This document shows, piece by piece, positions 41,018 through 53,758 of a DNA stretch of 64,000 nt. Position 1 is the first letter of the stretch; each line of letters begins with the position of its first letter. The notes beneath the pieces were generated by a model. It did no database searches. It was not told where the DNA came from and worked only from the letters and a program-made list of their open reading frames with translations. The position numbers were made by a program, and so were the translations under genes. Source of the stretch: Sphagnum magellanicum (taxonomy: Eukaryota > Streptophyta > Sphagnopsida > Sphagnales > Sphagnaceae); contig CM038908.1 in assembly GCA_021904315.1 (NCBI GenBank), positions 35,082,001 to 35,146,000 of the forward strand, given 5' to 3'.

Positions 41018-41026
41018 CTCCGGCAG
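41018..41026. other. Target-site duplication, left (9 bp)
   Basis: CTCCGGCAG directly before the MULE is repeated exactly at 53750-53758 directly after it, and occurs once at the equivalent place in the empty copy (61133-61141). Nine-base duplications are the rule for Mutator-type elements. Confidence 0.95.
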
Positions 41027-41063
41027 GGCTGGAGTGAATTAGCACCCACCAATGCACCAGTTG
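41027..41063 (+). repeat. MULE left terminal inverted repeat
   Basis: Thirty-seven bases pair with 53713-53749 with two mismatches near the tip (GGCTGG versus GGCCAG). Weaker similarity with gaps continues inward to about 41090 (GGCCGTT, CTGGATGG). Confidence 0.95.
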
Positions 41064-41170
41064 CGGATGAGCCCGTTGAGGCCGTTTTCTGGATGGACGA
41101 AAATCCCATCTCCCTGCCCGATTTTTTTTTTTTTTTTCCACCTCTTCTCTACCCCAAAATTTTCCCCCGT

Positions 41171-41268
41171 CCTACCTACCACCTACCTCCCCCTGTCCTA
41201 CCTACCACCTACCTCCCCCCGTCCTACCTACCACCTACCTCCCCCCTCCTACTTACCACCTACCAACC
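41171..41268 (+). repeat. 26-bp subterminal tandem repeat, about 3.8 copies
   Basis: Units start at 41171, 41197, 41223 and about 41249 with CCTACCTACCACCTACCTCC. The complementary theme (TAGTAGGGTAGGTGG) forms a 33-bp array inside the right end. Subterminal tandem repeats near the termini are common in MULEs and can be transposase binding sites. Confidence 0.85.
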
Positions 41269-41309
41269 CCTCCCCCTCACTCCATCGCCAGAGCTCCTGG
41301 CTCCAAAGA

Positions 41310-42635
41310 CGTTGAGTAGGAGCGAGCTTGGAGCTTGGAGCCGGCTTGGAGCGGGAGCGAGCTTGGAATTTGGAACGAGCTTGGAGCTTGGAGCGACTGC
41401 AGCTGGACCCACGTAGGACCCAGGTAAGCATTTCTCTTTGTGTTGCTTCTTATTTGTGTTGCAAGAAAAGAAGAAGAAGAAGAAGGCGATGGCATCGCCT
41501 TCTTCTTCTTCTTTGTGCCGTGGAGCTTACAACGCAAGCTCTGAACGCAAGCTCCGGAGAGCTTCGGAGCTTCTCCGGAGCTTGCATTTCTTTCATGCAA
41601 CAAGCTCTGAGCCCCGGAGAGCTCCGGAGCTTGCCGAGCTCCAGAGAGCTTCGGAGCTTGCTGCAGCTCCATAGAGCTCTGAGCTCCGAGCAACGCGAGC
41701 TTCGGAGCTTGCTACAGCTCCAGAGAGCTCCGAGCAGCGCGAGCTCCGAGCAACGTGAGCTCCGAGCAACGCGAGCTCCGGAGCTTGCTGCAGCTCCAGA
41801 GAGCTCTGAGCTCCGAGCAACACGAGCTCCGGAGCTTGTTGCAGCTCTAAAGAGCTCCGAGCTCCGAGCAACACGAGCTTCAGAGCTTGCTGCAGCTCCG
41901 GAACTTGCCGAGCTCCAGAGAGCTCCGGAGCTTGCTGCAGCTCCGGAGCTTGCCGAGCTCCAAGCAACGCGAGCTCCGGAGCTTGCTGCAGCTCCAAAGC
42001 TTGTCGAGCTCCAGAGAGCTCCGGAGCTTACTATAGCTCCAAAGAGCTTCGAGCTCCGAACAACGCAAGCTCCGGAACTTGCTGCAGCTCCGGAGCTTGC
42101 CGAGCTCCAGAGAACTCCAAGCTCTAAGCAACGCAAGCTCCGGAGCTTGCTGCAGCTCCTGAGCTTGCCGAGCTCTAGAGAGCTCCGAGCAACGCGAACT
42201 CCGGAGCTTGCTGCAGCTCCGAGCAACGCGAGCTCCAGAGCTTGCTGCAACTCCGGAGCTTGCCGAGCTCTAGAGAGCTCCGGAGCTTGCTGCAGCTCCG
42301 GAGCTTGCCGAACTCCAAAGAGCTCCGAGCTCTGAGCAACGTGAGCTCCGGAGCTTGCTGCAGCTCTGGAGCTTACCGAGCTCCAGAGAGCTCCGGAGCT
42401 TGCTGCAGTTCCAGAGAGCTCCGAGCTCCGAGCAACACGAGCTCCGGAGCTTGCCGAGCTCCAGAGAGCTCCGAGCTCCGAGCAACGCGAGCTCTGGAGC
42501 TTGCTTGCTGCGGCTTGCTTGCTGCTGCAATGCAGCAAGCTCGGGAGCGTGAGAGCTTGCTGCTGCAACACAAACTTCGAAGCTTGCTGCAACTAAACCC
42601 TGCAACGCAGCAAGCTCTGGAGCGTCTCTTGCAAT
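41310..42635. repeat. 1.3-kb GC-rich GAGCTCCGGAGCT array
   Basis: The tract consists almost entirely of the words GAGCTCCGGAGCTTGC, TGCAGCTCC, AGAGAGCTCC and GAGCAACGCGAGCTCC in varying order, with a loose higher unit near 50 bp. AGCTCCGGAGCT is a perfect palindrome, so the tract is dense in self-complementary sites. GC content is far above the rest of the window. Several long open frames on both strands (up to 380 codons, rich in Ala, Ser, Glu, Leu and Arg) exist only because the repeat avoids stops. It precedes the zinc-finger gene and could influence its expression. Confidence 0.95.
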
Positions 42636-42762
42636 AGAAGAAAAAGAAGAACCATGAACCTTTTGCCCCATCCTCTATATTTTTTATTTTGCTTTGGTTT
42701 AGCTGATTAGAATTAACATTTAACAATAATTAGTGGTCTTTTGTTTAGGGTTGGAAGTTGGA

Positions 42763-44188
42763 ATGGGTAAGAGAAGAAGACTCAGGAAAAGCGGTGGTGG
42801 TGAGCTGGAGGTCAATATGCAAGATGTTACATCAGATGAGGCGATTCTTCCAAGTGTTGCTATGGCAGATGTGATGATTCTTTTGCCATATGTTGTTGGA
42901 GGAGATGAGGGAATTATTGAGTCACATGTTGCTGCATCTGATGCAATAATTATTCAGCAAAATGTTGCATCAGATGAAGCAAATAGTGAACAAGATGTTG
43001 CATCAGATGAAGAAATGGGTGAGCAAAATGCTGCTCTATCACAATTGAAATATAAAGATCGCATTAGTATAGATTGTTTTAGAATGTGTGGACATCAGAT
43101 TAAATACAGATTAAAGAAATTGTACAAGTTTTTTTAGGTTTAATTATATCCGCACCTTCCATCATTTGTTGGAAGGTGTGGGATTTTTTTTTGTCAAATT
43201 TTTTTAATGCAATACCTGAAAACAATGATTTGTAATATCTACATTTTGTTTTTTGATCTTTCTTTTTTTGGCTTAGGTCCGGAAGTTGAATCTGATAAGG
43301 CAGCTCTGCCACTTGCACTTTTTTGCCCACCGAATTTGGCTCGGAAAGACAAGGAATGGACGCATGTTGGGTCCAAATGGAGGTGCAAAGTTGGTAATTG
43401 CACTATTGCATATTGTGCAAAATGGCTGTTGACGAAACACTTGAAGGAGGTGCATGGGTTGGTGGCTGAAAAGTCCAAACCTGGGAGGCCTTCAACTGCT
43501 GCAGGAGGTCCTCGACATCAGGACCATGCCAAGATGAATGCTCGCATCTTGGGAAATGCGATGGCTGTGCAGAGGCAGAACGATCAAAAGGTGGCTAGTC
43601 GCGCTCGTGCCAAAACACAACGCGAATGGGAAAACCTGGTAGCTGTTGCAAAACAGTGTCCACCATTCCCAAAACCAGGTTTGGTGAAATTAGCTTCAGA
43701 AAAACTTTTGAAAGTGTTGGGGCTTACTGCTTGGGGTGTGGGCAGTGTGCCTCGAGATGTAGCATCGCGAATGGAGGAAGATGAAGACTTACAAGGGATT
43801 ATTCGATCCACCCGTTGCGCATATGCACGGCAACTCAAGACGGCATGGGATGCCAAATATTGGGATCGAGAGTCCAATAAAACAAGTCGGAGAAAACAGT
43901 TGGTAGCTGTTTTGGATTTTCATGAATCTAGAATGATTCATGGAAGGTAAGAAACAATCATAAGCAATGTTTATTGTTTTTTTATTGCATTTCATCCAAG
44001 GTGTGTTAGGGTTTAACTTGGTGGTTTTTGGGTGTTTATAGGTTCAGGGCCAAACACAGGAAGAGTTTGTGGCAACCGCAGTTCAAGTGGAAATGCAACG
44101 TCGGCATTTATACACTGCTCATCATGCAACAAAGGCTGCAAATGCAGCTGCTGCGTACCGAGTTAAACACGAGATTGTAGATTGCTAG
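42763..44188 (+). CDS. C2H2 zinc-finger protein, MULE accessory gene (3 exons)
   Basis: Exon 1 runs 42763-43018, from ATG (MGKRRRLRKSGGG) to donor G|GTGAGC. Exon 2 starts at 43277 after a T-rich tract and TTAG; both sides are phase 1, giving EEMGPEVESDK. Exon 1 is acidic with four variants of VASDEA. The finger lies at residues about 122-145: C122-x4-C127-x12-H140-x4-H145 (CKVGNC to HLKEVH). A basic stretch follows (KSKPGRPS), then an Ala/Arg/Gln-rich probable helix. The last exon starts at 44042. A consensus donor AG|GTAAGA at 43946 leads to a stop at 44180 (354 aa). A weaker phase-0 donor at 43902 leads to the more protein-like EEFVATAVQVEMQRR ending at 44188 (342 aa). I cannot choose between them. 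It probably binds DNA in the nucleus; a transposition role is inferred from position. Confidence 0.75.
43019..43276 (+). other. Intron 1 of the C2H2 gene
   Basis: 258 bases from GTGAGC to a T-rich tract ending TTAG. It is phase 1 on both sides, and splicing restores one frame through EEMG|PEVES. It contains several in-frame stops. Confidence 0.75.
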
Positions 44189-44525
44189 ACACTGATATGG
44201 GTTAGGGTTTAGGGTTATACAGTTAGTTAGGTTTTATAGCCCTTTTACTTTTTGGACTACCCAATTTTGAACTACCCAATATAATAGCATCTTCTATTCA
44301 CACTTGTTTTATGGTATATGGGCATATGTCTTCTTTGTCATAATTTTTTTAGTACTTGAGATGTAAGAATCAAACCAAAGATCAAAATGAACATTGTGCA
44401 ATACTTACATATAATATAATAGCACTCACATCACTTGAAGAGTTTCAAAACAATATACACATTTTAAACATATAAAATACCTACATCACTTTCTATTATA
44501 AATCTCATAAGGAGATTTTCAAATA

Positions 44526-44863
44526 TGCAATACCCACATCTACGTCCTAAAATAGTCACAGGCATATTACATTCAATGCAATACCCGCATCTAAGTCCCA
44601 TAATAGTCGTTGCAATTTTTGGCATCCCTTGCAATACCCGCATCTAAGTCCCATAATAACCGTTGGTATTTTTGGCATCTCTTGCAATACCCGCATATGG
44701 GCCACCCATAGTTGTTGACATTCGTCATTCGCTGCAATACCCGCATATGGGTCCATGGTTTTCGTTGGGTTTTATAACATTTCTTGCAATACCCGCATAT
44801 AGTTTCCATAATAGCCACTAGTTTTTTTTTGTGTCTCTTGCAATACCCGCATATAGGTCCCAT
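44526..44863 (+). repeat. About 52-bp tandem array of TTGCAATACCCGCAT, seven copies
   Basis: Copies of TGCAATACCC start at 44526, 44577, 44630, 44683, 44733, 44785 and 44839 (spacing 50-54). Each is followed by GCATnTAnGTCCCATAATAG or a variant. The minus-strand frames across it (repeating CGYCK) are a by-product of the repeat. It lies just 3' of the zinc-finger gene. Confidence 0.92.
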
Positions 44864-45021
44864 AATAGTTGCTGGTTTTTTTCATTATTTGCAAAACTTA
44901 CATTTTGTCATAAAATTAATTTAGAATAATAATCAATTTAGGTATATAAAAAGACATATTTTGGGTATCCATAGCACTTATTTGTTATTTTGAAATGACA
45001 TTACATGCAAGTTTTGCATTC

Positions 45022-45056
45022 AGGGTTTAGGGTTTAGGGTTTAGGGTTAGGTTTTC
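45022..45056 (+). repeat. Interstitial telomere-type repeat
   Basis: About four tandem units of the plant telomere motif (GGGTTTA) run from 45022, followed by GGGTTAGG. It is inside the MULE, not at a chromosome end. Confidence 0.85.
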
Positions 45057-45603
45057 ACATAAGGTTTGCTTCTTACCTTTGTGTGATAACTCCAACCTAA
45101 TTTTCCTAATCTCTTTGAAGAAAATATATCGTAAGATTGTTTTAGGTCCCATATGTTTAAACCCAAAAAATTTCCCCCCAATTGAATATAAAATATTTTT
45201 GATAGTACATGAATTATCAACAAATTTTGACATATAATTAAATAATTAATAGACCATTATTTCAGATAATTTAAATGATTAATTATCAAGAATTAGATAA
45301 TCATTTATTTATTTGGAATAATTAACTATTCATTTGGCTTAACTTCATTTATTTGGATAATAAAAAGTTGGATCTAAAAATCAGATTAACTTTATTTGAT
45401 TGCTTAACTTTAATATATTTTTATTTTAATAAGTGATTAAAATCACTATTTAAGATAACTATTCCATGTTATAGATTGCATGTTCAGCTTTTTCATAAAA
45501 AATTCATACACCAAAATAAGTTTGATCACAATTGCCATTATACTATTTGTTCCACAAACAATATAATTTTTTTTCAAATTCATGAAACAAAATAAGAATC
45601 ATG

Positions 45604-45672
45604 GGTTTAGGGTTTAGGGTTTAGGGTTTTAGGGTTTTTTAGGTTTAGGGTAAACCCTAAACCCTAAACTCC
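45604..45672. repeat. Inverted telomere-type repeats (hairpin-forming)
   Basis: GGGTTTAGGGTTTAGGG-type units read in one direction to about 45650 and then switch to TAAACCCTAAACCCTAAAC on the same strand. The two arms are complementary, so this site could form a hairpin or mark a head-to-head join of telomere repeats. Confidence 0.8.
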
Positions 45673-45819
45673 TAATCAACAACCCCAGCCTCACACCTTT
45701 GTTAACATATTATTTTGAAATTAATTAATTATTTTAGAATGACCTGAAATGTAGATATTACATTTAGGGTAGGATCTTCATTTAAAGAAGCTTAAACCCC
45801 AGAACCGTATTTTTATAGT

Positions 45820-47420
45820 GGCCCAAAATGCAGGTATTGCATGTAGGGTAGGATTTTCACTTAAAGAGGGCTTAAACCCCCCATGTGTACTTTCGAGGTG
45901 ACACAAAATGCAGGTATTGCATTTAGGGTTCAGTTTATATCATTATTTATATATTAAGTGTTATGAATAACAATATATTTGGACCAATATTTAAACCAAT
46001 ATTATACATCATGAAAAATAAAGTTTACATAAGGACTTGTGTTATAAATCTATTAAATATAAAATATTTTTGACCCACTATATGAATATTTTAACCAAGA
46101 AAATATTTACTATATATCAGAAAAGTATAAATTAAAATTTCAATTAAACATAGGATTAATATATGGGAGAGATCATTTTTATTATTATGTGAAACGGAAA
46201 AGAAAAAAGTAGAAAATTACGTGCTTTGAATTTTTTTAAAACATAATTTAAAATCTTGTTAAATTAAAGACTTTATATTTTATGTTTTTAGTATGAATAT
46301 ACAACTTTAAAAGGGGAAAAAAAAAATGAACATCTTTGAAAAATATTTAAGCTTGAACTTTTTATTTTTTGATCTTGACAAACTTTGTATTGTATTTAGG
46401 GTTGGGTTTTCACAGAAGGTTTGTTTTTTACCTTTGTGTGATAACTCCAACCTAATTTTCGCAATCTCTTTGAGGAAGATATAGAATGAAATTGGATTGT
46501 TTCACATATGTCTAAACCCTAAAATTTTCCCCCTAATTTAATATAAAATATTTATGATAATTAATGAATTATCAACAAAATTTGTCATATAATTAAATAA
46601 TTAATAGACCATTATTTCAGATAATTTAGATGATTAATTATCAAGAATCAGATAATCATTTATTTATTTAAAATAATTAACTAATCATTTGGCTTAAATT
46701 TATTTACTTGAAAATAAAAAGTTGGATTTAATCAGATTAATTAATTTGATACTTAATTGATTAACTTTAGTATATTTTTGTTTTAATAAGTTTTTGAAAT
46801 CACTATTTAAGATAATTATTCCATGTTATAGATTGCAAGTTCAACTTTTTCATGAAAAGTTTTTACACCAAAATAAGCTTGATCACAATTGTCATTGTAT
46901 TATTTGTTCCACAAACAATAGAACCTCTTTTAAAATTCATGAAAAAAAATAAGAATCATGGATTCCTAATCAACAACCCCAACCTCCATACACACTTTTG
47001 TTAACATATGATTTTGAAATTAACTAATTATTTTAGAGTGACCCTAAATGCAGGTATTACATTTAGGGTAGGATCTTCATATAAAGAACCCTAAACCCAC
47101 ATGCGTACTTTCGGAGTGACCCTAAATGCAGGTATTGCATTTAGGGTGGGATCTTCATATAAAAAAACCCTAAACCCCACATGCATACTTTCGGAGTGAC
47201 CCTAAATGCAGGTATTGCATTTAGGGTGGGATCTTCATATAAAGAAACCTTAAACCCCACATGCGTACTTTCTGAGTGACCCCAAATACAGGTATTACAT
47301 TTAGGGTAGGGTTTTTTCAAAGTGACTTTGCGTCTGCATATTGTGTTTAGGGTTAGGTCTTCACTTAAGGGTATCCAAACCATTTAGATGGGTTTTTTTT
47401 TAACGTGTGGGTATTGCATT
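45820..47420 (-). repeat. GCAATACCTGCAT motif cluster, minus orientation, partly 80-bp tandem
   Basis: ATGCAGGTATTGCATTTAGG or a close variant occurs near 45829, 45907, 47048, 47128, 47208, 47287 and 47405. The group at 47020-47300 is a regular tandem repeat of about 80 bp (GTGACCCTAAATGCAGG, GGATCTTCATATAAAGAA, CACATGCGTACTTTC). A telomere-like GTTTAGGG accompanies nearly every copy. Between 45930 and 47000 lies AT-rich sequence that repeats 45050-45560 (second copy from about 46400). No gene is present. Confidence 0.88.
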
Positions 47421-47590
47421 TAGGCTTGTTTTTCATTTAAACTTGCAATACCCGAACTTATACTTACCTTTACTAACTGGAATGTTGGGGTTTCATTGCA
47501 ATACCTACATCCGTACTTATCTTTACAAATTGGAATTTTGGGGCATGATTGCAATACTTGCATTTGTACTTACTTTTACCAACTGGGATT
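47010..47590. repeat. Internal direct duplication in the MULE, copy 1
   Basis: This segment recurs at 52010-52570 in the same order and orientation: the 80-bp array, CTTCACTTAAGGGTATCC, AACCATTTAGATGGG, then plus-oriented motif copies with TACTTAC and AACTGGAATnTTGGGG. The two copies flank the transposase gene. Confidence 0.88.
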
Positions 47591-47836
47591 TTGGGGCCTA
47601 GTTACAATACCTGCATCTAACACTAATATCATCATTATGCTTATGTTTTTGCATTTCACACTTTTTGTGCTTATTACTTGGAAACAATAATAACCTTTGT
47701 GCCATATTAAACTTCATGTGCGTGTTGAATACATGATGTTCAAAGAATTTGGGGTATGATTTCCTCCATACAAAATTGATTATAAAAGAAAATTCTTAGT
47801 GCTAATGGCAACAATCTTGATTAGTAATTGAAACAT

Positions 47837-50562
47837 TTATTCATGACATCGTTTAGTACGTACATTTGTGTGATTGAGCATTGTTTCATGCCAATCTTTG
47901 AGGCGTTTGACACTATTTCCCAATCCATCTTCTACACGACGTAACACCAATCCTGGATGTGAAATTGCATTTGCTTTTGTGAGGCGTATGTTACGAATAT
48001 TACATGCCAATACTCTCATGTGTGAGGTGGCATGTTCACAAAGTGTCACATCGCCTTCTTTACATTCATTTGTGATCTCTTGCATTGTAATGACCAATTG
48101 TGCAAGAGCCCTTTCCATTGGGGTTGATGAATTTATTGTCTCATTAGACCCTACAATGGCACCCATAGGGAGATCATTTTGCTCCATGTTCATGAGCCCA
48201 TCAAATTTCATGATCCCATCGTCACCTTCAAGATGATCATCTTCGTCATCATCATTGGACTCCATATCATCTGGAATATGTTGCGAGTCTGCAAACATGT
48301 GACGCAACCCTCCACGATGTGATCCATACCATGTTCCACAGTAATGAATGATATCCTCTTGAGAAATGTCTGTGCATGTGAGAATGACCTTAATTTGGTG
48401 TTTACACATGTTCCCTCGCAATGCCCATTCACATGTGCAACAAAACATTTCGGTGAATGGGAATTTCACCATGTAAATAACATTGGGAAGGCGTTGGCTC
48501 CGTACGGCCCAAGCTCCATCACTCTCAAGGGTTGGTTGGTACACATGGCTGAGTGGAATAAGGGTTGCCTTTTCCACACTTCGTGTAATAATGGCCTCCA
48601 CAACCTTGTTTTTTATGAAACCCCTCTTTTTCATTTCCAATGTGTGCATGTAGTGGCGTGCAATGGTTGTTGTTAATCGCCACACCAACCAATCAATCCT
48701 ACGCCCTCTAAAGCCTTTTGTGTCAAGAGCAAGCCAACGTTTCAATGCACCATGATATGATTCAATGCTCGCTTGGGTGTCTTGGTTCGAATGGGGCACT
48801 CTTCGAACACCCACCATCCATAATTCTACAAACATAAACACAATACATAAGGATGAATAACATTATACAAAATAAATTTTGAATGCTGAACCATAATAAA
48901 TATTATCACTTACCAAATTGATGGTAATAAGTCCAGAAATAGTTTGTCCACGCATCACCAGGCTTATGTTTATGAAGGCTTTCTCTCACAGCAACCCTCC
49001 CACGCTCTTTGAAGTCATCAATTGTTTCTCCATGATTGATGGACATGTACATCACATCATGAAGGTCTTGGAGGATTCCACCCAGCACTTCCACATCTTT
49101 GATTTTTTCAATACCACGTAGGCGCCATGCTTTGAGAACATGCCAACAACAAAGGTAGATGGGAACCTTGTCCATACCCCATACGACCCTAATAAGGACA
49201 CATATGCAATAAAATCTCCATGAGTGGATGGGGTTAGTACAACATAAAATGCATTTGAAGTAATCAAGAATTTTATGAAAGATATTAAAAAACATTTAAG
49301 GAATAAACACAAAGTCGATACTAGGTATAGAACTAACCGTAATGCCTTCAATTCTTGAGGTGCATCATCAACGAGAAAACATGATGGTTTCCAATGCGGC
49401 ATGTGTGATAACATCTTCTCTTTTAATGGTTTCAACCATTCGATCAAATCTTGCACTGTTTGCCTACTTGTAATGATCCAGGCTAAAGGGACACCCGTGT
49501 GATGATCATCAAATCCCATCAAGGTGAATAGATGGAATTTCATGTCATTTGTGCCAAATGTTGCATCCATAGAAATGGCACCATTGTGACCATATGATAG
49601 CATGGACTCACATTGAGTTGGTGTTTGAATACCTATGGTGAATGGGACTTGAGTTCCGTTCATTTCACCAACATCTTGGAAAAAGAACACATCTTCTGGA
49701 TGTTGGAGAGCCCAAGACCGAATTGAAATTGCAGGGTTAGTGTGTAAACGCCAACTCCCTTTCTTATGTTTCTGATCCAAATATGCAATGTCTTGAAGCC
49801 GAATGAAATCATCTCGTGTCATGCTTTGACCCACATTCACACGTTCCCACCAAATTGCTTTATGCTTGTCATATATTTGTTTGGTCGTATAACCTAAGCT
49901 TAGTTGGGCCCATATGTGGTCTTTCAATGCTTGTGACATGCGTGGAGCATAACGAGACATACGAGAAATGGACTCTGGGTCATGCTCACCATGTGCGAAT
50001 GACCCATCAATTCGTGTATGGGCCTTATGATAAATTGTGATCTCAGCCACATCAGGTCGTGTGTATAGACGTTTGATTGAGAATGACGCTAAGCATCCTC
50101 GTTTAATAGATCAAGTGTGGGTTGAATTTTCTCGATAGTCCTCTGGTCCATATCCGCATTGATACCTAAACCAAAAAACTTTCAAAACGTAAATGATTAC
50201 ATCTTTGGTATATGAATTAAAGAAATTAAAAAGGTTAATGCCATAAATGTTTACCATGTATGCCCGAGGTGGTTTTTGATAGTTGGTTGCTTGACATCCA
50301 TTTGGCTTGGAATGTTTTTGTGAACATTCCATTCCATAGGGGTGCTTGTATCCCCTCGTTCACCTTCCAAGAATTCCGCGACGCGAGCATATGGAACATA
50401 AGCAAATTGAATGGTCACTTTATTTTGCCCTCCATGGCGTATCCCAGATGTCCACACCAAGTCTCTGTTTGAGAAAGGGGATTTGGTGGGGTTTTGGACA
50501 TGAATGGAATGGGACTTTGGAACCCTTCCCATGATTGAAGGAAGTAGGACAAATTCCTGCAT
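47837..50562 (-). CDS. MULE transposase, four exons, one in-frame stop
   Basis: Exons (minus): 50562-50255, 50165-49338, 49188-48914 and 48825-47837. Introns are 89, 149 and 88 bp, all GT-AG with matching phases, giving exactly 2,400 coding bases. The transposase core is clear: first Asp in SMDATFGTN (D303), second in CFLVDDAPQELKALR (D369 or D370), the C-x2-H signature in YLCCWHVLKAW, and Glu in IESYHGALKRW (E492). A SWIM zinc finger follows (C600-x-C602 to C611-x-H613, CTCEWALRGNMCKH), then an acidic tail. Residues about 106-152 have Cys and His spacing that could form a zinc cluster for DNA binding. The only lesion is TGA at 50111-50113 (codon 121), one C-to-T change from CGA. The ATG at 50562 is the first in frame; an upstream exon is possible since TTGATGCAG also resembles an acceptor. 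It would cut and paste elements bearing these termini in the nucleus. Confidence 0.92.
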
Positions 50563-50612
50563 CAAGAGAATTTATAATTCTCTAAACATTCATCATTGAA
50601 CAAAAACCCAAA

Positions 50613-50985
50613 ATGCAATACATACATGGCTCCTTTAAAATCAATGTTATGACTTGGAATTCCCATTACAACACCCATATCATGATATAAAAAACCTATT
50701 ATTCCAATGTACATAACGTACAATACTTGCATTATGAACCCATATACTAAAACAAATTTTGGCAATACCCACATTGAGCTACTAAACCTCCCATCATTGA
50801 AAATTTTCTCATATGCAATACCCATATTGTACCTTAAACCCATGATGTCTGAAAACCCCATGTAGCAATACCCACATAGTGATAAATTAATGCACACTGT
50901 TTGAGAGGTACAAAATGCAATACCTACATTAAGCCAAAAAACCCACACTAGTTGTGGGTAGTCAATGCATTATTCGCATATGGGT
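50613..50985 (+). repeat. GCAATACCCACAT motif cluster upstream of the transposase
   Basis: About eight copies (for example near 50614, 50762, 50815, 50864 and 50918) spaced roughly 50 bp, in plus orientation like the 44.5-kb array. They lie immediately 5' of the transposase start, where a promoter would be expected. Spacing close to that of the 44.5-kb array suggests common origin. Confidence 0.85.
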
Positions 50986-52009
50986 ATGAAAACATAAACT
51001 ACAAAAAAATATTGAATATGAAATATCCATGAAAAAGTATAAAACCTTTATCTATGCTTGTATACTTAATGAAACTTGATGCCCTTTCTATATCCAACAA
51101 CTAGGAAATGAAAGGAGGTTGAATTGTGAAAATATAAACAAAAAAACAAAAGAAGTTACAAGAGACAAATGCATACCTTTAAGAATAAAAGATGACAACG
51201 TTCCACCAAAGCTTATAATCCCAATTGAAAACACAACCCTAAAAAATCATAACTCGTACAAAAATGGGTTAGAAAATATTAAACTTTAGGAACTATGGAA
51301 CATATGGAAACAAAGGAAATTCAAATTATGGTATAGATTTAAACAAGTGAATAGATCAAAAACCAATACAATGAGCAAAATTTAGAGTATAAACCTTAAG
51401 TTCTGAAATATATGAACCAAATTCTTATACACTACATAATAAAGCATAACCTTAAAAATCCAAATGATATTTTGCCATAAGCCTTATTACAACCCTAATT
51501 ATACAAACCCTAAAAAAAAAAAGTCTTAGTGATATATGTCCTAAACCCAAAAAATATACAAAGTATACAAATTATATAATGCAAAATACGTTAAACTTTG
51601 AAAACAATCAAATAAATTTCATACAAAACCAAAAGAGAAGATATGTTACTTACCTTTGTGTGATCTCTCCAACTTAAATTTTTCCACTCTTTTTGAAGAA
51701 GATATAGAATGCAATTGTATTACTTCACATATGTGTAAACCCTAAAATTTTCCCCCCAAATTGAGCCTACTTTAGATTAATTACTCTATATTTGTGAAAG
51801 ACTTATTAATTAATTTATGTGTCTCAACCCTAAACCTAATGGTTAAGTTAGTAGGGTATGTAATTAATAGAGTAGCTAAGTTAGTAAGGTAGGTGGTTAA
51901 TACAATAGCTAGGTTAGTAGGATAACTAGGTATTAGGGTAGTTGTGTCAGTAGGGGATAATAAATAAGGTACCAAGGTTGGTGTAATACTTATGAGGGTA
52001 GGAAAGTGA
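50986..52009. other. AT-rich part of the MULE, no gene
   Basis: Contains at 51640-51800 one of four copies of a 130-bp block (CTTACCTTTGTGTGAT to AAATTTTCCCCCC); the others are near 45060, 46410 and 52790. TAGTAGGGTAG-type words at 51850-52020 resemble the right subterminal array. No coding sequence is supported. Confidence 0.7.
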
Positions 52010-52570
52010 GCAGGGTAGCTATTCGGAGTGACCCCAAATGCAGGTATTGCATTTAGGGTGGGATCTTCATATAAAGAACCCTAAACCCCACATGCGTACT
52101 TTCGGAATGACCCCAAATGCAGGTATTACATTTAGGGTGGGATCTTCATATAAAGAACCCTAAACCCCACATGCGTACTTTCAAAGTGACCCTAAATGCA
52201 GGTATTGCATTTAGGGTAAGATCTTCATATAAAGAAAGCCTAAACCCTACATGCGTCCTTTCGAAGTGACCCAAAGTGCAGGTATTACATTTAGGGTTGG
52301 GTTATTTCAAAGTGACTTTGCATATGCATATTGTGTTTAGGGTTAGGTCTTCACTTAAGGGTATCCAAACCATTTAGATGGGTTTTTTTGAAACGTGGGT
52401 ATTACATTTAGGTTTGTTTTTTCATTTCAACTTGAAATACCCAAACTGTACTTACCTTTACCAACTAGAATTTTGGGGTTTCGTTGTAATACCTACACCC
52501 GTACTTACTTTTACCAACTGGAATTTTGGGGCATAATTTCAATACTTTCACTTGTACTTACTTTTACCAA
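52010..52570. repeat. Internal direct duplication in the MULE, copy 2
   Basis: Second copy of 47010-47590, with the 80-bp tandem motif array (motif near 52036, 52117, 52197 and 52277) and the same following sequence. The plus-oriented motif copies at 52430-52550 are more decayed than in copy 1. Confidence 0.88.
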
Positions 52571-53160
52571 ACCCTAACAAAAAAAAATCTTAGTGATATA
52601 TGCCCTAAACCTAAAAAATTATACAAGCTATACAAATCATATAATGCAAAATAAACTAATTTAAAAGAACATAGGAAAAAATTAAAAAACCAAAATTCAA
52701 AGGTTTTAAACTATAAATATTTATTAAGTGAAAGAAAATATGTTAATCTTTAAAAATAATCAAATAAATTTCATATAAAACCAAAAGAAAAGATATGTGT
52801 TTTATCTTTGTGTGATCCTTCCAACCTAATTTTTCCACTCTTTTTGAAGAAGATATAAAATGCAATTGTATTACTTCACATATGTGTAAACCCTAAAATT
52901 TTCCCCCCAAATTTAGCCTACTCTAGATTAATTACTATACATTTGTGAAAAACTTATTAATTAATTTGTGTCTCAACCCTAAACCTAAAAATTTCCCCCC
53001 AAATTTAGCTTATTTTAAATTAATTACTATACATTTATGAAAAACTTATCAATTAATTTATGTGTCTCAACCCTAAACCTAATGGTTAAGTTAGTAGGGT
53101 ATGTAATTAATAGAGTAGCTAGGTTAGTAGGGTAGGTGGTTAGTACAGTAGCTTGGTTAG
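52571..53160. other. AT-rich right part of the MULE
   Basis: No gene. Holds the last copy of the 130-bp CTTTGTGTGAT block (about 52800-52925), with part of it (AAATTTCCCCCCAAATTTAG) repeated again near 52985-53010. Confidence 0.65.
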
Positions 53161-53365
53161 TGATGTGACCCAAAATGCAAGTATTGCATTTAAGGTATGA
53201 TCTTTGTATAAAGATGTTTAAACCTCACATGCGTATTTTCGAAATGGCCCAAAATGCAAGTATTGCATTTAGGGTAGGATCTTTGTATAAAGAAAGCTTG
53301 AACCCCACATGCGTACTTTCGAAATGGCCCAAAATGCAGGTATTGCATTTAGGGTAAGGTTTTTA
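53161..53365 (-). repeat. Last GCAATAC motif copies, minus orientation
   Basis: Three copies near 53177, 53254 and 53337 in a repeat of about 80 bp (GCCCAAAATGCAAGTATTGC, GATCTTTGTATAAAG, CACATGCGTACTTTCGAAATG), diverged from the 47-kb and 52-kb arrays. Confidence 0.85.
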
Positions 53366-53389
53366 GGGTAGGGTATGTAATTAATAGTG

Positions 53390-53540
53390 TAGCTAGGTTA
53401 GTAGGGTAGGTGGTGAGTACAGTAGCTAGGTTAGTAGGGTAGGTGATGAGTACAGTAGCTAGGTTAATAGGGTAGGTGGTAAATACAGTAGCTAGGTTAG
53501 TAGGGTTGGTGGTGAATGTAGTAGCTAGGTAGAAAAGTGA
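53390..53540 (-). repeat. 33-bp subterminal tandem repeat, about four copies
   Basis: Units AGTAGCTAGGTTAGTAGGG start at 53421, 53454 and 53487, with partial units on both sides (spacing 33). On the minus strand this gives CTACC words, mirroring 41171-41268 at the other end. Confidence 0.85.
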
Positions 53541-53712
53541 ACAGGGTAGAAAAGTGAACAGGGTAGCTATGTGTGGGGTCAGGTCCAGGGAAAAACGAAC
53601 AGGAACCAAAAAAAAAAAAAGTACAATGGTCAGCAGCAAAAAGAAATGGACTGTCATGAACCCCATCCGGCGCCCAATGAAAAAACGCAACCCATCCAGT
53701 GGACAGAACGGC

Positions 53713-53749
53713 CAACTGGTGCATTGGTGGGTGCTAATTCACTCTGGCC
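53713..53749 (-). repeat. MULE right terminal inverted repeat
   Basis: Reverse complement of 41027-41063 with two mismatches; followed immediately by the 9-bp target duplication. Confidence 0.95.
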
Positions 53750-53758
53750 CTCCGGCAG
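53750..53758. other. Target-site duplication, right (9 bp)
   Basis: CTCCGGCAG, identical to 41018-41026; sequence D resumes directly afterwards with GACCTGGAAA. Confidence 0.95.

Follow-up and report, generated by a model that had tools for sequence, protein, structure and literature searches.

In the moss Sphagnum magellanicum, a gene encoding a single C2H2 zinc finger is the resident second gene of a family of Mutator-like elements (MULEs), a conclusion about which we have very little doubt. The gene was studied in one copy of the element on contig CM038908.1 of assembly GCA_021904315.1, in a 64,000-nt stretch of DNA referred to here as the window (G000:C2:35082001-35146000), to which coordinates refer unless another contig is given. 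The genome searched for relatives comprised 438,994,042 bases in 31 contigs. An earlier note, made from the letters of the window, had proposed that a transposase gene (minus strand) and a spliced C2H2 gene (plus strand), here called the partner, converge between the termini of a MULE. The two genes do converge, well within the termini of such an element, but the interval quoted for it, 42763-50562, does not reach the real termini at 41027 and 53749, which are given by terminal inverted repeats (TIRs) and a target-site duplication (TSD).

Partner copies were taken as the best 150 of 1138 candidates for exon 2, these 150 being the ones scored, a sample in which host homologues outside the element would not be visible. 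Elements with two perfect TIRs were paired from the 100 zero-mismatch TIR matches listed (of 808). All 19 elements obtained in this way contained the partner, 18 by coordinates and one, on contig C15, by reading its DNA. A transposase match was present as well in nine of them; in eight both genes were found by coordinates, and the C15 element had a transposase match together with a partner whose frame was broken. The other ten contained the partner and no transposase among the matches listed, and an element with the transposase alone was not found (0/19). At least 147 MULE matches were obtained, and for 38 the nearest partner was convergent and within 15 kb, at a distance of 3.6-5.9 kb in 35 cases. 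Two pairs were in other arrangements; for the 147 MULE matches listed, approx. 1.5 pairs in any arrangement were expected by chance. Among the 30 best transposase copies (L039-L068) the partner was found by coordinates in 25 and by reading the DNA in one more, and four were left out of this count.

The position of the TIRs relative to the partner was followed on contigs C1-C15. A perfect TIR in the right orientation was found no more than 6 kb upstream of 63 of the 80 better-ranked partner copies and of 4 of the 46 lower-ranked ones, and a wrongly oriented one near none (0/126). The low share among the lower-ranked copies fits old, decayed elements. The earlier note had made its proposal depend on homologues lying between MULE termini and on other copies of the element keeping the gene; in this one genome both were observed.

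The TSD of the window copy, CTCCGGCAG, is perfect and abuts 41027-53749 exactly on both sides, which speaks for a fairly recent insertion. Similarity between the window and a copy on contig C3 (L069) likewise begins at 41027. A 27-nt core of the TIR, with up to 3 mismatches allowed, gave the 808 genome matches mentioned above, and the reversed pattern used as control gave 0. Here and in a second element (L084, see below) TSDs of 9 bp next to TIRs of 37 bp were found, within the 8-11 bp that mark the MULE superfamily. The minus-strand gene was indeed a MULE transposase, matching PF10551 with 36.2 bits (cut-off 27.6). A CxC...CxH resembling the SWIM finger, which is common in transposases of plant MULEs, was visible by eye, with 9.8 bits for PF04434, below the cut-off of 19.6. 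At 50111-50113 the window transposase has a stop, and all 5 other copies displayed have arginine there. Because of this in-frame stop and a last partner exon out of register, the window copy is probably non-autonomous now; copies open at its defective places are present elsewhere in the genome. A second group of MULEs (L001-L008 and the 20 best MULE matches) reached much higher PF10551 scores of 63-81 bits and had no scored partner match within 15 kb; it is a different family in the same genome.

Structure, maintenance and exchange of the partner gene

The partner model, revised to three exons, was derived from splice consensus and comparison of copies, without transcripts, and its borders are plausible (ATGG/GTGAG, TTAG/GT, GAAG/GTAAG and ATAG/G). 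An acidic repeat, one finger and a basic tail had been described for its product. The repeat was recovered as a tandem peptide, ELEVNMQDVASDEAILPSVA, in exon 1, its copy number ranging from 1 to 4 in 30 loci, and the finger as a single C-x4-C-x12-H-x4-H (WRCKVGNCTIAYCAKWLLTKHLKEVHG). The basic tail turned out to be unreliable, since the last exon of the window had been read in another frame; in 12 of the 30 loci the spliced frame ends ...VDC/IDC. In these 12 loci the spliced frame is intact and encodes 357 to 417 residues, a length that depends mainly on the copy number of ELEVNMQDVASDEAILPSVA. In the remaining 18, the frame ends early or differently in 12, including the window; five were set aside because the splice site missed the search pattern and one because no start was found. 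The finger is directly followed by a KPGRPS stretch, which we take to be an AT-hook-like core. In an alignment, 11 of 13 diverged partner copies retained all four finger ligands.

Against these 13 copies, in a comparison between two partner clades, exon 2 of the window showed a synonymous divergence (dS) of 0.37-0.57 and a ratio of nonsynonymous to synonymous divergence (dN/dS) of 0.21-0.33. A diverged copy without stops (L070) differed from the window at 119 positions, 58 of them nonsynonymous, where 77% would be expected under neutrality (p 1e-11). Its dN was 0.07 for residues 26-65 and 0.03 for residues 66-110, compared to 0.19 and 0.17 elsewhere. Judged by these substitutions, the partner has been under purifying selection between the clades and has been long maintained. 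A chance open reading frame (ORF) was ruled out by the 150 scored genome copies of exon 2 together with the purifying selection against L070.

Five elements combined a transposase close to that of the window (dS 0.012-0.080) with a distant partner (dS 0.40-0.57); their transposase/partner pairs are L051/L070, L062/L073, L061/L074, L064/L071 and L067/L072. Adaptive change behind the large partner divergence was ruled out, as dS was raised while dN/dS was low, and the divergence is therefore explained by module exchange. The L070 element was 98% identical to the window over 45937-48438 and 77% identical over 42926-45033. Thus the exchange border lies in the 0.9 kb between 45033 and 45937, and array a (Table 1) travels with the partner. 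These sequence comparisons show that the partner module has been swapped between elements.

The partner could also have been a host gene, or a piece of one, that was captured and is just carried along in the element, as in Pack-MULEs, and uptake of host genes is frequent in MULEs (PMC6446971). We regard this as very improbable, considering the presence of the partner in 19 of 19 two-TIR elements, its retained introns, the purifying selection between clades and the 12 of 30 intact spliced frames. The copy evidence and the selection both disfavour a hitchhiking fragment.

Motif arrays and derivative elements

Allowing up to 2 mismatches, the motif TGCAATACCNGCAT was found at 37 sites in the window compared to 1.88 expected; 34 were inside the element and 0 in its coding exons. 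The sites occur in both orientations, and the leftmost lies 2.2 kb from the left end of the element. A scan for 9-mers, made over the two main non-coding stretches without the motif as seed, gave TGCAATACC next after telomere-like words. It occurred 19 times in 8 unlike contexts, and the top 9-mer count in 20 mononucleotide shuffles was 3-5. Genome-wide, the exact pattern TGCAATACCYGCAT had 2136 matches and its reversed pattern 0. Of the first 100 matches, all on contig C1, 71 had a partner or MULE match at a distance of at most 12 kb, compared to 1.1% of random points, and 22 formed two clusters (L085, L086) beside a one-mismatch TIR. The positions of the arrays and genes are collected in Table 1.

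Table 1. Features of the element in the 64,000-nt window.
Feature	Position	Strand	Remarks
Target-site duplication, left	41018..41026		9 bp; CTCCGGCAG, identical to 53750-53758
Whole MULE	41027..53749		12,723 bp; basis: TIRs, TSD and alignment to the C3 copy
Left TIR	41027..41063	+	37 bp; 35/37 identical to right TIR
AGCTC minisatellite, upstream of partner gene	41319..42505		GC-rich
Partner exon 1 (acidic tandem peptide)	42763..43018	+	Donor ATGG/GTGAG
Degenerate motif copy, partner intron 1	43208..43221	+	2 mismatches; perfect copy at the corresponding place in L070
Partner exon 2 (C2H2 finger, KPGRPS, remainder without known domain)	43277..43946	+	150 scored genome copies; dN/dS 0.21-0.33 (13 diverged copies)
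Partner exon 3	44042..44188	+	Window copy out of register compared to 12 other loci
Motif array a (TGCAATACCCGCAT)	44526..44852	+	Approx. 53-bp period
Motif arrays b, between the two genes	45828..47299	-	80-bp period
Motif array c, 3' of transposase	47405..47616	mostly +	53-bp period
Transposase gene, several exons	47837..50562	-	Borders approximate; MULE domain match 49328-49576; in-frame stop 50111-50113
Six degenerate motif copies, upstream of transposase	50614..50929	+	1-2 mismatches
Motif arrays b near right end, upstream of transposase	52038..53347	-
Right TIR	53713..53749	-	37 bp
Target-site duplication, right	53750..53758		9 bp; CTCCGGCAG

The arrays could be no more than minisatellites of the usual kind, bearing no relation to the partner protein; the protein would then bind something else or act otherwise. 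They are tandem repeats with periods of 53 and 80 bp, their flanks are partly conserved, and some shuffles reached the scores in four of six comparisons of repeat units (see below). Set against this, the same word was found in 8 unlike contexts and in both orientations, and in the part of L070 that is 77% identical to the window 6 of 11 motif sites were perfect. We therefore consider the minisatellite explanation improbable.

Relatives for which no transposase, or no partner, was found contained motif arrays as well. One of them (L084; G000:C11:19862400-19870800) was read whole and contained TIRs, the TSD TCCTTTGTG, the partner and 23 motif sites, and no transposase was detected by tblastn. 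The part missing from it has a copy of the 80-bp motif repeat on either side, at 47315 and 52022 in the window. As these repeats flank the lost segment, the arrays may promote transposase loss by recombination. A further element (G000:C5:3615459-3627948) has two perfect TIRs and two facing partner copies, with no transposase among the matches listed. At L085 and L086 (G000:C1 near 7.72 and 15.35 Mb) a one-mismatch TIR lies next to the arrays, and the stretch read, covering one end, contained no partner; these are probably gene-less derivatives, as judged from that stretch.

Two other repeats were seen in the element. The telomere-like words AAACCCTAAA were the commonest 9-mers of its non-coding DNA (44230-47800 and 50570-53600), AACCCTAAA occurring 26 times; they are found e.g. 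at 45022-45048 and 45603-45675 and could be sites for host telo-box proteins. In the 5' part, copies align only piecemeal over the long AGCTC-rich minisatellite at 41319-42505.

Putative role of the partner

A finger followed by a GRP stretch, one word filling the non-coding DNA and arrays persisting in derivatives look together like a trans-acting regulator and its targets. According to this reading the partner product would act in trans as a sequence-specific DNA-binding protein. It would recognise the TGCAATACCYGCAT arrays in its own intron 1, in the intergenic part and upstream of the transposase, and once bound it would keep the promoters of the element active against host silencing, like VANC for the VANDAL elements of Arabidopsis. 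We infer that the protein is made, binds the motif and counteracts silencing, and the parts of this proposal differ in strength. For the putative binding of the motif we see the chances as even. The reading as a whole, with a regulator binding the arrays as its core, is favoured tentatively and falls a little short of that. An anti-silencing or activating role, rather than one in transposition itself, is possible, though more doubtful again.

Several observations weigh against the proposal. Pfam recognised neither a finger nor any other domain in the partner; the only match was Vps4_C with an E-value of 0.07, below its cut-off, and DUF1985 was not matched. A sequence search of the PDB (phmmer) gave only TFIIIA fingers at chance level (E 0.98) and no usable domain. 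The single-sequence AlphaFold model of exon 2 alone was poor, with a predicted local distance difference test (pLDDT) of 47. One finger and one AT-hook-like stretch are also little for a 14-bp site. Regarding the motif, 7 of the first 100 TGCAATACCYGCAT matches were single and near nothing known, and L070 has one 2-mismatch site inside partner exon 3. The arrays are partly homogenised tandem repeats, and in array a the flank ATATAGGTCCCATAATAG is also conserved between the clades, thus conservation there is not confined to the motif core. When repeat units were compared in pairs against 200 shuffles, only two of six comparisons (a-c and b-c) beat all shuffles, and the a-c match extends past the motif; the score was reached by 2 shuffles for a-d, 10 for a-b, 26 for c-d and 46 for b-d. 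Regarding selection, 11 of the 13 diverged partner copies carry stops, a decay that pushes up their dN/dS. In young copies the pooled ratio of nonsynonymous to synonymous polymorphism (pN/pS) was only 0.52 across 30 loci of the partner and 0.59 across 20 of 30 loci of the transposase, and by this measure the young copies show little recent constraint on either gene.

Alternatively the partner could be a cofactor of transposition comparable to TNPA (Spm/En) or mudrB (MuDR), whose repeat binding aids excision or insertion, with silencing effects at most secondary. The convergent two-gene layout and the partner in 19 of 19 two-TIR elements are in line with such a function, and the subterminal repeats recognised by TNPA are cis-determinants of transposition, while TNPA also works on deletion derivatives in trans (PMC2613891). 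However, the left-side sites of the Sphagnum element are not subterminal, the first being at 2.2 kb, and arrays occupy an intron, the intergenic part and the region upstream of the transposase. Since no site falls in the left 2.2 kb, regulation of the element's promoters is a better fit than a TNPA-like role that is purely subterminal, and we consider a cofactor unlikely. The earlier note had suggested, besides a captured host gene, a second transposition protein; the function so named was more specific than the evidence, and a trans-acting DNA-binding regulator fits somewhat better.

Finally, the partner could mainly serve the partner-bearing elements without transposase, e.g. by repressing the full element or competing with it. 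Ten of the 19 two-TIR elements had no transposase among the matches listed, and for one of these, L084, the absence held when the element was read whole. The partner is, however, also retained in two-gene elements, and L084 can be explained by recombination of the 80-bp repeats that flank the transposase (47315, 52022). This possibility appears about as improbable as that of unrelated minisatellites, if not slightly more so.

Comparison with known systems

In maize MuDR, mudrA and mudrB converge, and the TIRs are approx. 200 bp long. The likeness to MuDR drawn in the earlier note concerns the layout. Shared with MuDR are the convergent genes, the 9-bp TSD and a second gene of unclear function; different are the TIRs, 37 bp in the Sphagnum element, and its C2H2 partner.

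A separate second ORF with a C2H2 or DNA-binding character already has precedents in MULEs (PMC6446971). Spectre, an aphid MULE, has one C2H2 ORF and one transposase ORF, and Mutyl of Yarrowia has as its second ORF mutB, to which a role in DNA binding is ascribed, its sub-group being tabled as C2H2 (PMC6446971). The same source is inconsistent on the orientation of mutB and does not, in the portions available, say which Mutyl ORF has the C2H2 motif; PMC5014426 describes the second Mutyl protein as of unknown function. Both elements belong to other hosts and clades and were likened here by description, and the available portions of PMC6446971 and PMC5014426 mention no motif arrays for them. In the literature searched, which left subscription papers mostly outside and gives no proof of absence, we found no description of a moss MULE that has a C2H2 partner and dense arrays of a motif, exchanges modules and often occurs as partner-only elements. 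The main text of the S. divinum genome paper (PMC9946827) mentions neither MULE nor Mutator nor transposable elements.

Spm/En, a CACTA element, also encodes a DNA-binding protein, TNPA, whose recognition sites are iterated motifs and which works in trans on deletion derivatives (PMC2613891). Unlike the Sphagnum element it belongs to another superfamily, its sites are subterminal at both ends, and the relation of TNPA to the transposase gene is different.

The closest working analogue of the partner is VANC (PMC5735166, PMC10398659), to which, as to TNPA, no kinship was detected. In VANDAL21/Hiun of Arabidopsis, as in the Sphagnum element, a MULE transposase is accompanied by another element-encoded protein, and a short motif is arrayed in non-coding DNA, including introns and the region upstream of the transposase (PMC5735166). 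VANC21 binds YAGTATTAY, which is arrayed in the non-coding DNA of VANDAL21 (PMC5735166); the arrays in the non-coding DNA of the Sphagnum element consist of another motif. Like the partner, VANC contains tandem peptides and is far less conserved than its transposase, VANA (PMC5735166). In contrast to the partner, VANC has DUF1985 and DUF287, and a zinc finger is unmentioned in the main text of PMC5735166. An additional gene of VANDAL21 is vanB. VANDALs have no TIRs or short degenerate ones (PMC6446971), whereas 37-bp TIRs are present here. It is conceivable, if rather unlikely, that a moss MULE evolved its own sequence-specific anti-silencing from an unrelated C2H2 protein, independently of VANC, and that the partner is exchanged together with the adjacent array as a cassette. 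If so, such an escape system could be built from a C2H2 protein, and a self-encoded, motif-directed escape from silencing would be a recurrent strategy of MULEs and not a peculiarity of the Arabidopsis VANDALs. The Sphagnum element offers a tractable system for this comparison, with a single protein and a single predicted site, many copies in the genome and natural derivatives without transposase or partner, in a moss with a chromosome-scale genome.

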